From Methanofervidicoccus abyssi (GTDB lineage: Archaea; AGJL01; Methanococci; Methanococcales; Methanococcaceae), in assembly GCF_004310395.1 (NCBI RefSeq), contig NZ_BFAX01000003.1, forward strand, positions 301,333-365,332: a stretch of DNA of 64,000 bases, written 5' to 3'. Below, piece after piece: positions 11,692 to 42,946 of the stretch (position 1 is the first letter of the stretch; every line of letters begins with the position of its first letter). Position numbers and translations under genes: made by a program. The notes beneath the pieces were generated by a model. The model saw only the letters and a list, made by a program, of their open reading frames with translations, was not told the origin of the DNA and made no database searches.

Positions 11692-12799
<1,108 letters not shown>

Positions 12800-12902
12800 T
12801 AATGAAAAGGTTTCTAAGTATATAGAAAAGTTATAATCATGCACATAACAATCATAACAAAAAAATTAAAAAGAGAGTAGGGTAGAAAATAACGGTGAGA
12901 TT

Positions 12903-13139
12903 TTACTCTTTCACCTGGTTCTGATTGAAATAATCCTCTGTTATTTTATCGGAATCTTCCTGTTATTGTTTGATATAATTACTTTTATACTCTTGACTAA
13001 ACATTAATACAAAATCTATTATATCATCCTTCTTCCATCGATAAAAACTCTAAATTAATTTCATCTCATCATCATTATTAATAACAAAAAACACCTTTCT
13101 CATTTTTTCAATTCTTTCAAGTATATCTCTATTTATCAT
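12903..13139 (-). pseudogene. Possible small gene with two in-frame stops
   Basis: From an ATG at 13139 with AGTGAT upstream, one frame runs 79 codons to a TAA at 12903, interrupted by a TAG at 13050-13052 and a TAA at 12963-12965. The text looks protein-like throughout (ILERIEKMRKVFFVINN, then SFYRWKKDDIIDFVLMF). No family is recognised. Either the first 29 codons are a real micro-gene or this is a decayed gene. It lies in an otherwise empty 390-base interval. Confidence 0.3.
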
Positions 13140-13192
13140 AATATCACTTAAGATCTAGTAACTCTAATCCTTATAACATAGGTGTTTTTATC

Positions 13193-13543
13193 TTAATCCT
13201 CATCAAAAATTATAGAATAAAGCTGAGAATTGTAGCTTTTTGCTGATTTATAAGCATCATAAATGATATATACCCAAATAATAATTGCTACTAAAAGAAG
13301 AAGAACTCCTATAAGAACTATAGTTAGGAGTGATCCTAATACCATTAAAATTACTACGAGTATGAGTAATATAACTCCTTTCCCAACTTTTTCAAGATAC
13401 ATGTGCCCTGCCCCTGGTATCATTATACTCAGGTATACTGCAAGTCCAACATTCTTTCTCTTTACCTCATAATAAATAATTTTTTGTGCTTTATCCATAT
13501 CCTTTACAAACTCTTTAATCCGAATAATTTCCATTTCATCCAT
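13193..13543 (-). CDS. TM2-domain-like small membrane protein
   Basis: 116 residues from the ATG at 13543. That start is preferred to the ATG at 13555 because GGTGAT lies between them. An N-terminal helical, charged stretch leads to two hydrophobic segments. The first carries IPGAGHMYLEKVGKG, the GxGHxY-type signature of TM2 proteins, and the second is a long valine/leucine-rich helix (about residues 60-98). It is likely in the cytoplasmic membrane; its function is unknown. It stands alone, next to a TnpB remnant. The short acidic tail is unremarkable. Confidence 0.7.
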   Translation of the reverse strand: MDEMEIIRIKEFVKDMDKAQKIIYYEVKRKNVGLAVYLSIMIPGAGHMYLEKVGKGVILLILVVILMVLGSLLTIVLIGVLLLLVAIIIWVYIIYDAYKSAKSYNSQLYSIIFDED

Positions 13544-13611
13544 CTTTATCACCATGAATTATAAGATCTTTATATACTAAATAGAACATGGAATATATAA
13601 GCAATAGGGGT

Positions 13612-13990
13612 TCAGCGGTGTAGTCTTTTATAGACATACATCCGCCTTGGTGCACATCAACCTCAACTCCCTCAGGGTTCATCGGGAGTAAGTCATCGGT
13701 CTCGCACCCTTTCAGGGTAACCCCGCTCCTTCTCAGGATTGGGAGCACTATTTTCCTCTCAACCCTCCATCGAAGGAGGAAAACCCCACATCCTTAGGTA
13801 GAGGGATTTATTGAAGCGTTTAGAGTTGTCTATTTATAACCAGACCACACTTACACTCAAGAACCTACCCCTTTCGGTGTTTCATCTTCTCATAACATCT
13901 GGGGCAATTCCTGTTTTCCTTCATCGTTTTTAACCTTTCTCCTACATACTTCCCTCTGAAGTTTCACAGATATAAAACTTCTTATCATTC
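13612..13990 (-). mobile_element. Decayed C-terminal remnant of an IS200/IS605-type TnpB
   Basis: Minus-strand frames give NCPRCYEKMKHRKG, a stop, then VLECKCGLVINRQL. This is the four-cysteine zinc knuckle and following GL..NR motif at the TnpB C-terminus. After two more stops and a shift comes GVTLKGCETDDLLPMNPEG, resembling the extreme C-termini of TnpB from hyperthermophilic archaea. No TnpA, RuvC-like N-terminal part or intact end is visible. The 3' flank is GC-richer than the surroundings. It is a dead IS fragment; a surviving guide-RNA function is unlikely but cannot be excluded. Confidence 0.6.
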
Positions 13991-14033
13991 AATATCGTAA
14001 AGTTTCAACTTCCTGGATTCCCTCTGTACTCGT

Positions 14034-14786
14034 CTATTTTAAGGGACCTCTGCCCCCGCCTCGGCCGGTTTCCATTGAGCTGTTTATAATTTCTTCAAAC
14101 TCGTCCTTGGGGAGAACCTGCGGCTCGTATGTGACTCCAATCCTCTCTAGCTGGCCAACAAAGGCCCTGAGATGATTTCTTGAGCCCGCCATGAGGTTCT
14201 CGTAGACCGTTATGATATCCACCTTGTTCGTCAGAGAAATCCACTTCTGGAGATCCTCTATGTCGGTTTCCTCTATCAACGCCCCAACTTTCAGCGCGTC
14301 AACCTTACTCTTCATGCCCATCTCTATCAACTTATCGTAGAGATTCTGGAGCTTCTCGTTCTGGAACTCACCTACTCCCTCGTTCTGCGTGGGATCGGTA
14401 AGGTTGTACTTCTGAAGGAGCAACCTAACGGCCTCGACGTGGGTGCTCTCACTTTTGGCGATGTTGCTGAATATCTGGAGCCCCCACTTCTCGTAGAGCT
14501 TCGTATAAACGTCGTGCGCCAGCTTCTCCTCTTCGACCATGTAGAATAGCCCGTCCTTCTCTTCCTGCGTTAATTGGCCGGCTAGAATCGAGTCTATGTA
14601 GGTCTTAAGTTTGCTCATTCCGATGCCGCCGTTCTCGTTGACGTTCACAGGTATCTGGTCCGAGCTACCCTGGTTCTCTGTGCTTGAAATCTGAGTGCTG
14701 GTTGTTGTCCTCGTGTTTATACATCCTGCCACAAGGACGCTGAGGAACAGCGCCCCTATAAGGAACAAACCTAACAACTTTCTCAT
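14034..14786 (-). CDS. DUF2202 ferritin-like lipoprotein
   Basis: 250 residues. The N-terminus is a lipoprotein signal: two basic residues, a hydrophobic core (5-19) and the lipobox VAGC at 19-22, followed by a Ser/Thr-rich linker. The remainder is a DUF2202 four-helix domain with ferritin-like glutamates and histidines (VEEEKLAHDVYTKLYEKW, then SESTHVEAVRLLL). It is likely anchored outside the membrane, perhaps in metal binding or redox stress. The gene is strikingly GC-rich (many C/G-ending codons) compared with neighbours, and resembles Thermococcales genes in style. Together with the adjacent hisZ fragment it suggests transfer. Confidence 0.85.
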   Translation of the reverse strand: MRKLLGLFLIGALFLSVLVAGCINTRTTTSTQISSTENQGSSDQIPVNVNENGGIGMSKLKTYIDSILAGQLTQEEKDGLFYMVEEEKLAHDVYTKLYEKWGLQIFSNIAKSESTHVEAVRLLLQKYNLTDPTQNEGVGEFQNEKLQNLYDKLIEMGMKSKVDALKVGALIEETDIEDLQKWISLTNKVDIITVYENLMAGSRNHLRAFVGQLERIGVTYEPQVLPKDEFEEIINSSMETGRGGGRGPLK

Positions 14787-14964
14787 AGTTCGTTCACCTC
14801 TACATATGCAACTTTGTTATTACATATATCTTACCTTTTATAAAACCTTTCAGTTTTAGCTTCAGCATGTTTTATGTTCAACTTTCGATTTAAAACAATC
14901 ATTGTTCGAAATTTAAGTAATCGAAAATCATTTAAGCACTCGGAAATATTGAATATACCTGACA

Positions 14965-15318
14965 AAGCCCGACGTGACGAGCCAACTACTCAAAAATTAC
15001 GATATAACCCTCGGGAAGATCTACTACATCAGCGAGGTTCTCAACGGTGGCGTTGAGGGAAAATGGCAGGCCGGTGTTGAGTTCATCGGCGGAGATTCGT
15101 TCTCATGGGTGTTGAGGTTCTAAGCGTTCTAATAACAGCCCTTGAAAGCCTCGGCATCGAGGAGTTCTATATCGACATCGGAAGCCTCGAGGTCTGGAGA
15201 CTAACCACAAAGGACATTCCCGAGTTCGGAGAAACCATCTGCCGGGCACTCGAAAGGAGGAACTTCGGCCTGATAGAAGGCCTTCCAATAAACGAAGAGA
15301 AAAAAGAAGAACTCATGT
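14965..15318 (+). pseudogene. hisZ: Frameshifted hisZ (ATP phosphoribosyltransferase regulatory subunit) fragment
   Basis: The first frame reads KPDVTSQLLKNYDITLGK and ends at GVEFIGGDSF; the reading then shifts at about 15102 to VEVLSVLITALESLGIEEF and continues through YIDIGSLEVW and ALERRNFGLIEGLP. These match, in order, the HisRS-like catalytic-fold core of HisZ. The N-terminal part and the C-terminal end are missing, and a one-base shift separates the halves. It is GC-rich and codon-biased like the adjacent DUF2202 gene and unlike the host. HisZ partners HisG in histidine synthesis, so this is a broken, acquired fragment. Confidence 0.6.
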
Positions 15319-15394
15319 ATTTTCTTTATTTGGGATTCTTAAGGTTGTCCTTTAGTATAAAATAGTTTTTTTATACTTATAATTTTCAAAATTA

Positions 15395-16162
15395 CTAAAC
15401 AATATCAGGTATCACTATCTTTATACTATCTAACTCCTTAATCCTACAGATATTTCCATAAAGAGTATTCAATACGTCTTCAGTTATCACTTCATAGGGT
15501 TTCCCATTGGCGATGATTTTTCCCCTATGTAGTACTATTACTCTATCACAAAACCATAGCATATGGTTGGGATCATGGACACTTACAACAACTGATATAC
15601 CATCCTCTGTAAGTCTTTTTAAGGTATTCCATATCTTTAACTGGTTTCTAAAATCTAACGCCGAAGTTGGTTCATCTAAGACCATTACTCCAGTTTCCTG
15701 TGCCAGTGCCCTTGCCAACAGTACCAACTGTCTCTGTCCTCCACTTAACTCTGTATAAGGTCTCTCTGCAAGATGGGAGATGCCAACAACTTCCATAGCT
15801 TCTATAGCCTTGTCCATATCTATTTTTTTCGGCCCAAATATACCTCCTAAATGGGGAGTTCTTCCCATCAGCACGATCTCCTTAACTAAGTAAGGAAATG
15901 GTGGCCTATGTTCCTGTGGCACGTAGGCTATTAACTTTGCTATATTCTCTATAGACATCTTAGTTATATCTCTCCCATCTACGTATATTTTTCCTATCTT
16001 AGGTTTTAAGAATCCTATAATACACTTAAAGAGTGTAGATTTTCCTACGCCGTTAGGTCCAAATATTCCACAGAGTTCTCCCCTTCCTACTTTAAAGGAT
16101 ATATCTTCTAAGATATACCTATCTCCACTATAGGCAAAATGAAGATTTTTAATCTCTATCAT
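15395..16162 (-). CDS. Metal-chelate-type ABC transporter ATP-binding protein
   Basis: 255 residues of the FecE/BtuD family, the cytoplasmic ATPase of an iron-complex or cobamide importer. It shows Walker A GPNGVGKST near 35-43, Q-loop AYVPQEHRPP, signature LSGGQRQLVLL, Walker B VMVLDEPTSAL, and the H-loop histidine in VVSVHDPNHML. The gene starts three bases after the permease stop, so it is part of the same operon as the permease and binding protein. Substrate is inferred from family only; siderophore iron, heme or cobalamin cannot be told apart. Confidence 0.88.
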   Translation of the reverse strand: MIEIKNLHFAYSGDRYILEDISFKVGRGELCGIFGPNGVGKSTLFKCIIGFLKPKIGKIYVDGRDITKMSIENIAKLIAYVPQEHRPPFPYLVKEIVLMGRTPHLGGIFGPKKIDMDKAIEAMEVVGISHLAERPYTELSGGQRQLVLLARALAQETGVMVLDEPTSALDFRNQLKIWNTLKRLTEDGISVVVSVHDPNHMLWFCDRVIVLHRGKIIANGKPYEVITEDVLNTLYGNICRIKELDSIKIVIPDIV

Positions 16163-40738: not shown

Positions 40739-42946
40739 TCATTCGACATCTCCCATTATCTTAGGAAAACTCTTTTCATAAACATCTTTCATCTCTTTTA
40801 TACCTAAGTTGATGATCTCCTTATCTCTACTGTATACACTCAAAGAGCCCCCTCCAACTTTTCCAATAATATATCCATTTTTACCTAAGGCGTTAAGAAC
40901 TTCCTCCACATTCTCCCCCTTTACAACAAGTAATATCCTCCCTGAAGTCTCTGAGAATAGAAGTATATCATCCCTTAGGTTGTTTTTATTGTAATTCCCC
41001 AGATATATCTCTGCACCTATCTTGTTCATAATACAGAGTCTTGCTACACCTACACCTAAACCTCCCCTCGAACAGTCAGTTGCATAACTTATCAGCCCCT
41101 TACCTATGAGATCAATCACTGTGTCGTATATCTTTTTCTCCCTCTCCAAGTTGCACCTTGGTACGATACCTTTTTCGATCTCATGAATGTATCTGAAATA
41201 TTCACTTCCCCCCATTTCATCCTTCGTCTCGTTTGTTACTATAATAACATCTCCCTCTTCCACGTTACTGTATATAGAAGGCACCATCTCCACGTTATCT
41301 ACGATACCTACCAGGCATATAGTAGGCGTTGGATTTATAGGATACTCCTTACCATCTATTACAGTTTCGTTGTAGAGACTTACATTGCCTCCTACAATAG
41401 GGATGTTGAAAAACTCTGCACAGTTGGCTAATCCCTCTACACACTTCTTCAACTGATACATTCTTTCAGGTTTCTCTGGATTTCCAAAGTTTAAGTTGTC
41501 CAACATTGCTATAGGTTTTGCCCCTACAGTTGCAAGGTTTCTAACACCTTCGCATACTGTATATACGCTACCTACATAGGGGTTTAACTTACAGAAGTTA
41601 GGATTACAGTCTGTTGTAAGTGCCAATGCCTTTGGAGGACATTCCATAAACCTAAGTACTGCAGCATCCATTCCAGGTTTTACAACAGTTCTCAGTTGTA
41701 CTTCGTAATCATATCTCTCGTATATCCACATCTTCGAAGCGATATTTGGACTCCCAAGTAGTTTCAACAGTACCTCTCCAAGATCTTCAGGCATTTCAAC
41801 CCTATTACTATCTATATATTCCTCAAATATACAGAGTTTCTCCCTTCTCTCTATAGGTGGTGCTCCACAGAGTAGATCTAGAGGTAGATCTACGATCTTC
41901 TTACCATGTATCTTAACTATAATTCTCTTAGTATCTGTAGTCCAACCTATAACAGAGGCTGGAAGTTCGTACTTCTTAAATATCTCTATTACTTCTTCTT
42001 CCCCTCCCCTCTCAACTGCCAACAACATTCTTTCCTGAGATTCTGATACTAGTATCTCGTAAGGTGTCATTCCCTCCTCTCTTAAGATAACCTTCTCTAA
42101 GTGTATCTCTGCACCAACACCTCCACCGTAACACATCTCTGAACATGCAGAGGTAAGTCCTGCAGCCCCTAGATCCTTTATAGCTTTTACCTTTCCAGTT
42201 TTACATGCTTCCAATACACTATCTATTAAACACTTACCTACAAAGGGATCTCCGATCTGGACACTTGGCCTATCTTCCTCACTCTCACTTGTGAGGTCCT
42301 TAGAAGCGAAAGAGGCCCCACCTATTCCATCCCTTCCGGTACTCCCCACAAGTATAAGGGACAGGTTAGGATCCCTGGCCTTTCCCGTTATAACTTCCCC
42401 TTCTCTTACAATCCCTATACAGACAACATTCACAAGGTTGTTGTAGTTGTAGGATCTGTGAAACTCACACTCTCCCCCTACAGTTGGTACGCCGATCCTA
42501 TTTCCATAATCACTGATACCACTAACCACCCCTTCCACAAGCCATCTGACTTTATTTCCCATCTCTCCCTCGATATCCCCAAACCTAAGAGAGTCCAGAA
42601 GTGCAATAGGTTTTGCATTCATAGAAATAACATCTCTTACTATTCCCCCAACACCTGTGGCGGCACCGTTGTAGGGATCTATATAAGAAGGATGATTATG
42701 ACTTTCCATTGCCAGTGCTATACATAGGCCAGTTTCTCTATCAATCCTTATTACAGCAGCGTCGTCTCCAGGCCCTATGACTATGTTCTGGTCATCCTTT
42801 ATGGTTTTACCGAATAACTTAAGGATGTTTCTTGTACTTCTATAGGAACAGTGCTCACTCCAGAGGTTTTCGAACATCCCAATTTCAATATCGTTAGGTT
42901 TTCTACCTAATTTTTTCTCTATATACTTTAGATCTTCGATATCCAT
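40739..42946 (-). CDS. purL: Phosphoribosylformylglycinamidine synthase II
   Basis: 735 residues, the small-type PurL that works with PurS and PurQ to make FGAM. Features include the N-terminal [44 protein letters not shown], and [15 protein letters not shown]. The second half repeats the AIR synthetase-like fold ([11 protein letters not shown]-like nucleotide region, then [13 protein letters not shown]). The glutaminase domain is absent, as expected for archaea. Start: ATG at 42946 after AGGATGGGAAT. It is monocistronic, and a dispersed repeat copy lies about 125 bases upstream. Confidence 0.96.

Follow-up and report, generated by a model that had tools for sequence, protein, structure and literature searches.

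The 64,000-nucleotide stretch of DNA analysed here (the window; C3:301333-365332 of a 1.31-Mb, five-contig host genome) very probably contains a chromosomal fragment from an unsampled member of the Thermococcaceae, which entered a methanogen and survives, with internal loss, between two convergent genes. The fragment carries a DUF2202 lipoprotein gene and a piece of hisZ. The origin of the DNA, its layout in relatives, its insertion relative to two genomes of the same genus and the patchwork of scraps around it are matters of observation; entry and joining are read back from them.

In the literature that we found, exchange between Thermococcales and Methanococcales concerns plasmids. The closest known example is pMETVU01, which is related to pEXT9a-like Thermococcus plasmids and moved from Thermococcales to Methanococcales (PMC3543421). 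It resembles the present case in direction, in the two groups involved and in their shared vent habitat; however, pMETVU01 is a whole plasmid, whereas the DNA described here is a piece of chromosome that includes part of the his operon, lies inside a chromosome and has no replication or integration genes. For the pT26-2 plasmid family, one paper reports no transfer between orders (PMC6972569). We regard the case as real but not unprecedented, in that it adds a well-anchored chromosomal example to the known plasmid transfers. The donor neighbourhood can be recognised, the site is empty in relatives and the junctions can be read, which makes this a concrete case for studying entry and joining. 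It also suggests that no visible mobile-element machinery is required for such DNA to arrive.

Features of the insert and its flanks (positions are those of the window)
Feature	Positions	Strand	Evidence
Left flank, archaeal riboflavin reductase gene (TIGR01508), native	12089-12799	+	283.8 bits, cut-off 186.45
Decayed gene, left part of insert	12800-13192	.	About 13052-13138 (-) matches a 173-aa G035 gene
TM2-type membrane protein gene, intact	13193-13555	-	Pfam DUF6677 2.7e-6 (above cut-off); TM2 0.0016 (below cut-off)
Decayed transposon-like relic, TnpB-like zinc-ribbon C-terminus and 3' end sequence	13591-13913	-	DNA matches to relics
Scrap of the host's own rRNA-maturation (Brix-type) gene	13914-14042	-	Intact copy on C5, ~40909-41048
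DUF2202 lipoprotein gene, Thermococcaceae origin, open	14034-14786	-	PF09968, tree, junction
Promoter and ribosome-binding region of the DUF2202 gene, also conserved in Thermococcaceae	14787-14926	-	Alignment to L001, L101, L002
hisZ fragment, Thermococcaceae origin	14956-15313	+	77-78% DNA identity, alignment
Right flank, FhuC/BtuD-type ABC transporter ATPase gene, native	15395-16162	-	Many ABC ATPase models

Thermococcaceae origin of the DUF2202 gene and the hisZ piece

A sequence-only reading had described a GC-rich stretch with C/G-ending codons in an AT-rich window, and scans of GC and GC3 agree with it. The GC content of 14043-15313 is 47%, against 35% (0.350) across the 64 kb. The DUF2202 ORF and the hisZ piece reach 0.503 and 0.497, while the highest values among equal-length windows elsewhere are 0.458 and 0.483, respectively, and the GC3 of the DUF2202 gene is 0.681, with a runner-up of 0.422 (36 ORFs of at least 200 aa in the window). 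The edges that had been claimed are accurate to within a few bases, but the 169 bp separating the two pieces, taken as part of the GC-rich stretch, are AT-rich (GC 0.278). A further GC bump at 13601-13760 (0.50-0.55) is part of the separate transposon-like relic. An Rfam scan of 12780-15420 gave no match.

The DUF2202 gene is an ORF of 250 codons (250 aa) with a lipobox-like start, and its protein matches PF09968 with 206.5 bits (cut-off 22; E 2.8e-61) over positions 1-161 of 162. Five protein relatives from a scan of genome contigs, at 54-79% identity, are all titled Thermococcus, Thermococcaceae or Thermococci. The family is also found in the host's own class, with a match in 17 of 36 genomes including the host; the 16 others are at 45-57% identity (two places in G016), and no native copy was found in the host genome (G000). 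In a tree of 55 rows (the window copy plus 54 matches that contain no stop and cover more than 150 residues of the query; shorter or broken matches and duplicates of identical sequence were excluded), the window copy is sister to those of G093 and G036 with support 99/94, nested inside the Thermococcaceae, and the 17 methanococcal rows all fall on one side of a branch with support 99/96. At the DNA level, identity to Thermococcaceae loci is 72-78% over 820-868 bp, promoter included; for L001 it is 78% over 836 bp, continuing through the promoter. On this evidence the DUF2202 gene was acquired by horizontal transfer from the Thermococcaceae.

The hisZ piece corresponds to about codons 59-177 of 296 and is truncated at both ends. 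Against four intact Thermococcaceae genes, one base is missing near 15105 in the assembled sequence, which shifts the frame; the earlier description of an open lipoprotein gene beside a frameshifted and truncated his subunit is thus upheld by the ORFs and the alignment. The best DNA matches among those listed are in G084, G073, G039, G059 and G100, at 77-78%. DNA matches to 14034-15330 occur in 72 of 94 Thermococcaceae genomes; at most four candidates per genome were scored in this comparison, and counts for single genes are to be read as "at least". The piece scores 24.8 bits against TIGR00443 (cut-off 271.65), over positions 127-203 of 314 and hence not full-length, and intact Thermococcaceae hisZ genes are also under the cut-off, at 122.9 and 123.0 bits. 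TIGR00443 matches occur in 35 of 36 class genomes, host included. These cannot be taken as 35 genomes with hisZ, since the one match scanned is a histidyl-tRNA synthetase (421.6 bits for hisS versus 303.5 for hisZ), and for the same reason the fragment is unlikely to come from a methanococcal source. Judged by these scores, hisZ is apparently not a gene of the host's class.

As a side observation, TIGR00443 places a methanococcal histidyl-tRNA synthetase above its cut-off (L112 1201-2451, 303.5 bits) and Thermococcaceae hisZ below it (L101 3722-4612 and L004 1818-2708, about 123 bits), so that transfer of names by this model is misleading here.

The sequence-only reading had proposed a search for the two genes as neighbours in a Thermococcus or Palaeococcus genome. 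At least 3 of the 94 Thermococcaceae genomes (G073, G039 and G037) have them side by side in this way. G073 carries both on one contig (2.09 Mb), with the DUF2202 match at 886617-887558 and the hisZ match at 888395-888753, and their order and orientation agree with those of the window. Between them is what we take to be a phosphatase-like gene, on the strength of an active-site motif identified by eye. The order DUF2202-phosphatase-hisZ-hisG-hisD is found in G073 and in L004 (G039), and G037 (L002) has the same layout but with a two-domain DUF2202 gene. Relative to the neighbourhood in G073 and G039, the window shares both genes in the same relative orientation but is without the phosphatase-like gene and the first ~58 codons of hisZ, and its hisZ copy carries the frameshift and breaks off after codon ~177; about 0.8 kb of the Thermococcaceae layout is absent. 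A candidate remnant of the his promoter between the two pieces finds no support, its local alignment being not above that of shuffles. Because the closest DUF2202 genes (G093 and G036) and the closest hisZ genes among the matches listed (G084 and G073) lie in different genomes, no sampled genome is the donor; in G084, DUF2202 and hisZ are far apart. The neighbourhood, the protein tree and the DNA identity together bear out the description of both genes as Thermococcales-like. The proposed exchange between vent archaea stands as a transfer from Thermococcaceae to methanogen, one direction only.

In some Thermococcaceae, tandem two-domain DUF2202 genes lie beside the his operon (L002 6001-7401, L101 1469-2911).

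A patchwork insert between two native genes

The Thermococcaceae DNA is smaller than the insert that contains it. The whole interval from 12.80 to 15.39 kb, 2.6 kb of host sequence, is an insert, because the same two flanking genes meet in G025 and G032, where their aligned parts are 13 bases apart and the genes, read by eye, overlap by ~11 bases at their ends. The left-flank gene has 85-87% DNA identity to three genomes of the same genus and matches the solved chain 2azn (2e-99). The right-flank gene has 82% DNA identity to G025 and G032. Of the ABC ATPase NCBIfam models shown for it, none is above its cut-off. The empty site is present in 2 of the 11 other genus genomes, and the remaining nine were without this junction in the search; in one of them, G028, which is complete on one contig, the left flank is followed by another gene. 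The polarity of the insertion rests on those two genomes out of 11.

The left part of the insert has relatives elsewhere in the host's class. A 29-aa piece of the decayed gene matches G035:C1:1426553-1426630 (E 1.2e-4, 62%), and the decayed stretch is 75.9% identical in DNA over 83 columns to the gene of G035 (in L130), which has the TM2 gene of that genome ~2.3 kb away. For the TM2-type gene, a protein search gave matches in 19 of 36 class genomes, host included. Its nearest relatives lie outside the genus, in other genera and in the other family of the class (G010, G034, G007 and G035, 56-72% over the best pieces); the copies of the same genus are at 44-49%, and that of G022 at 29%. On this pattern, the left part of the insert may itself have been imported, or it may be an old paralogue. 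The 35 bases at 12973-13007 that match another contig are AT-rich, and the match was attributed to chance.

The relic that follows is 84% identical in DNA to a relic in G028 and 79% to one in G027, and it shares 76-104 bp with multi-copy repeats of G012 and G035, about ten in each. It is a candidate remnant of an IS200/IS605 TnpB gene; its zinc ribbon scores 13.2 bits against PF07282 (E 0.1), under the cut-off of 26.3, and no intact element related to it was found. The repeats themselves (L118 and L120 in G035; L115 and L119 in G012) are non-coding and about 306-314 bp long, with ~10 matches per genome. Two of the G035 copies are alike over 314 bp (99%), and the repeats may be small non-autonomous elements.

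Between the relic and the Thermococcaceae DNA lies the scrap of the host's own rRNA-maturation gene; this identity rules out an insertion-sequence end at the same place. The scrap agrees with the intact copy at 127 of 128 aligned bases and differs from it by an 11-base deletion and two single-base indels, i.e., by more indels than substitutions. The intact gene matches NCBIfam NF002092 with E 3e-49, below the cut-off. The DUF2202 stop codon falls inside the scrap, and the last codons of the lipoprotein gene were therefore made by the junction.

Fate of the lipoprotein gene

The DUF2202 protein, if made, would be a lipoprotein of the MJ0754 family anchored in the membrane, and it may bind metal. 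A candidate lipobox, LSVLVAGC, follows a short hydrophobic start (read by eye), and its cysteine is invariant in an alignment of five rows. A profile built from the window protein and four Thermococcaceae proteins finds the solved chains of MJ0754 with E 3e-76. The window copy has the glutamate and ExxH residues that are typical of ferritin-like proteins. A metal-binding role is only a guess, because the rubrerythrin model matches under its cut-off (E 0.084, 13.7 bits; cut-off 22.8) and the structure predicted from the five-row alignment is poor (mean pLDDT 41.7). The window copy matches the domain of MJ0754 (PF09968; PDB 3q4n, 3q4o, 3q4q, 3q4r) over its full length; it differs from MJ0754 in grouping with the Thermococcaceae lipoproteins and in having a C-terminus made by the junction. 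The DUF2202 gene of a class member, G001, is a very close match to MJ0754 of Methanocaldococcus jannaschii. In the literature searched, no paper with DUF2202 or MJ0754 was found.

Has the gene been kept for its function? We counted the changes that are seen in the window and in none of the rows aligned with it, using four relatives each for DUF2202 and hisZ; for hisZ a fifth locus, L107, was dropped, having no frame under the motif used. Window-only changes at codon positions 1, 2 and 3 number 13, 10 and 20 in DUF2202 (23 non-third versus 20 third) and 13, 8 and 26 in hisZ (21 versus 26). In the pooled relatives, the non-third and third counts are 8 versus 25 for DUF2202 and 4 versus 19 for hisZ, and the window differs from the relatives with Fisher p values of 0.018 and 0.034, respectively. 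Both window branches thus appear relaxed, with DUF2202 no more constrained than the dead hisZ fragment. This is a lean rather than proof, because the relatives' rows are non-independent and the window branch includes time spent in the donor.

It is possible, but rather doubtful, that the gene was retained as useful to the methanogen, e.g., in metal binding or stress defence, in which case it would restore a function natively encoded by 16 of the 35 other class genomes. Such retention would fit the intact reading frame of 250 codons, which contrasts with the broken state of hisZ, the transposon relic and the host scrap. It would also fit the survival of the promoter and ribosome-binding site and the lack of a native copy in the host. 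Against it, changes across the codon positions show at least as much relaxation as in dead hisZ, so that a kept function finds no support there, and the C-terminus was remade by the junction. Moreover, a native copy is present in only 1 of the 11 other genus genomes, and the function is therefore dispensable in the genus. We suggest that the DUF2202 gene is probably a passenger without strong selection.

Entry and joining of the fragment

The piece of Thermococcaceae chromosome was very probably about 2 kb long in the donor, comprising the DUF2202 gene with its promoter, the phosphatase-like gene and the start of the his operon. It now occupies the gap between two convergent genes after an internal loss of ~0.8 kb. 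The DNA may have entered free or in vesicles, and it may have been joined through Ku-independent, error-prone end joining, which would also have captured the scrap of the host's rRNA-maturation gene. Natural transformation is known in Methanococcus maripaludis and is one possible route of entry (PMC10133366), vesicles are an alternative one (PMC10117752), and Ku-independent end joining has been reported for archaea (PMC12019639). The Ku gene was found in none of the 36 class genomes by a search that found it in Bacillus subtilis as a control. Ku-independent joining would explain both the union of unrelated pieces and the host filler; it was shown in Saccharolobus, and here it is proposed from the sequence. 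A more specific reading, which we offer tentatively and think doubtful as it stands, is that the gap is the scar of a repair. The chromosome would have broken between the touching convergent genes and been healed by Ku-independent end joining of Thermococcus DNA, transposon scrap and filler copied from the host's rRNA-maturation gene. If this is true, the scar would be a natural record of how free DNA from another archaeal class becomes fixed in a methanogen chromosome with the help of neither homology nor mobile elements.

A plasmid, virus or transposon could instead have carried the DNA and later decayed, and the transposon-like relic does lie 0.13 kb from the Thermococcal edge. We consider this unlikely. 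Relatives of the relic occur in genomes of the host's class, its DNA matched none of the five Thermococcal loci with which it was compared, and the host scrap separates it from the Thermococcal DNA. Neither an integrase ORF nor paired flanking repeats were found in 12.7-15.5 kb, and the DUF2202 gene was found in no archaeal plasmid record, in 2 bacterial plasmid records of 72,556 and in none of 50,697 phage records.

It is very improbable that the insert arose through a chimeric assembly or through contamination by a Thermococcus in the same culture. The junctions are those of an assembly in 5 contigs, but the insert sits between native flanks within a contig at least 365 kb long, and the adjacent host scrap differs from its source by indels, which a chimera would not readily produce. 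In addition, no long match exceeds 79% identity among the matches listed from the 94 Thermococcaceae genomes. Vertical inheritance with an odd base composition could appeal to the DUF2202 genes in other genomes of the class, but it can be dismissed: the protein tree, in which methanococcal closest relatives and a vertical pattern were looked for and not found, refutes it for DUF2202, the DNA identity also points to the Thermococcaceae, the site is empty in relatives, and hisZ is apparently foreign to the class.

Returning to the uptake of a Thermococcaceae fragment, we note that its parts may differ in age. Rough arithmetic from the codon-position counts gives 4-7% neutral change in the Thermococcal DNA, against ~1% substitutions in the host scrap. 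Because the scrap looks younger, the pieces may have arrived in separate events, or relaxation may have begun already in the donor.
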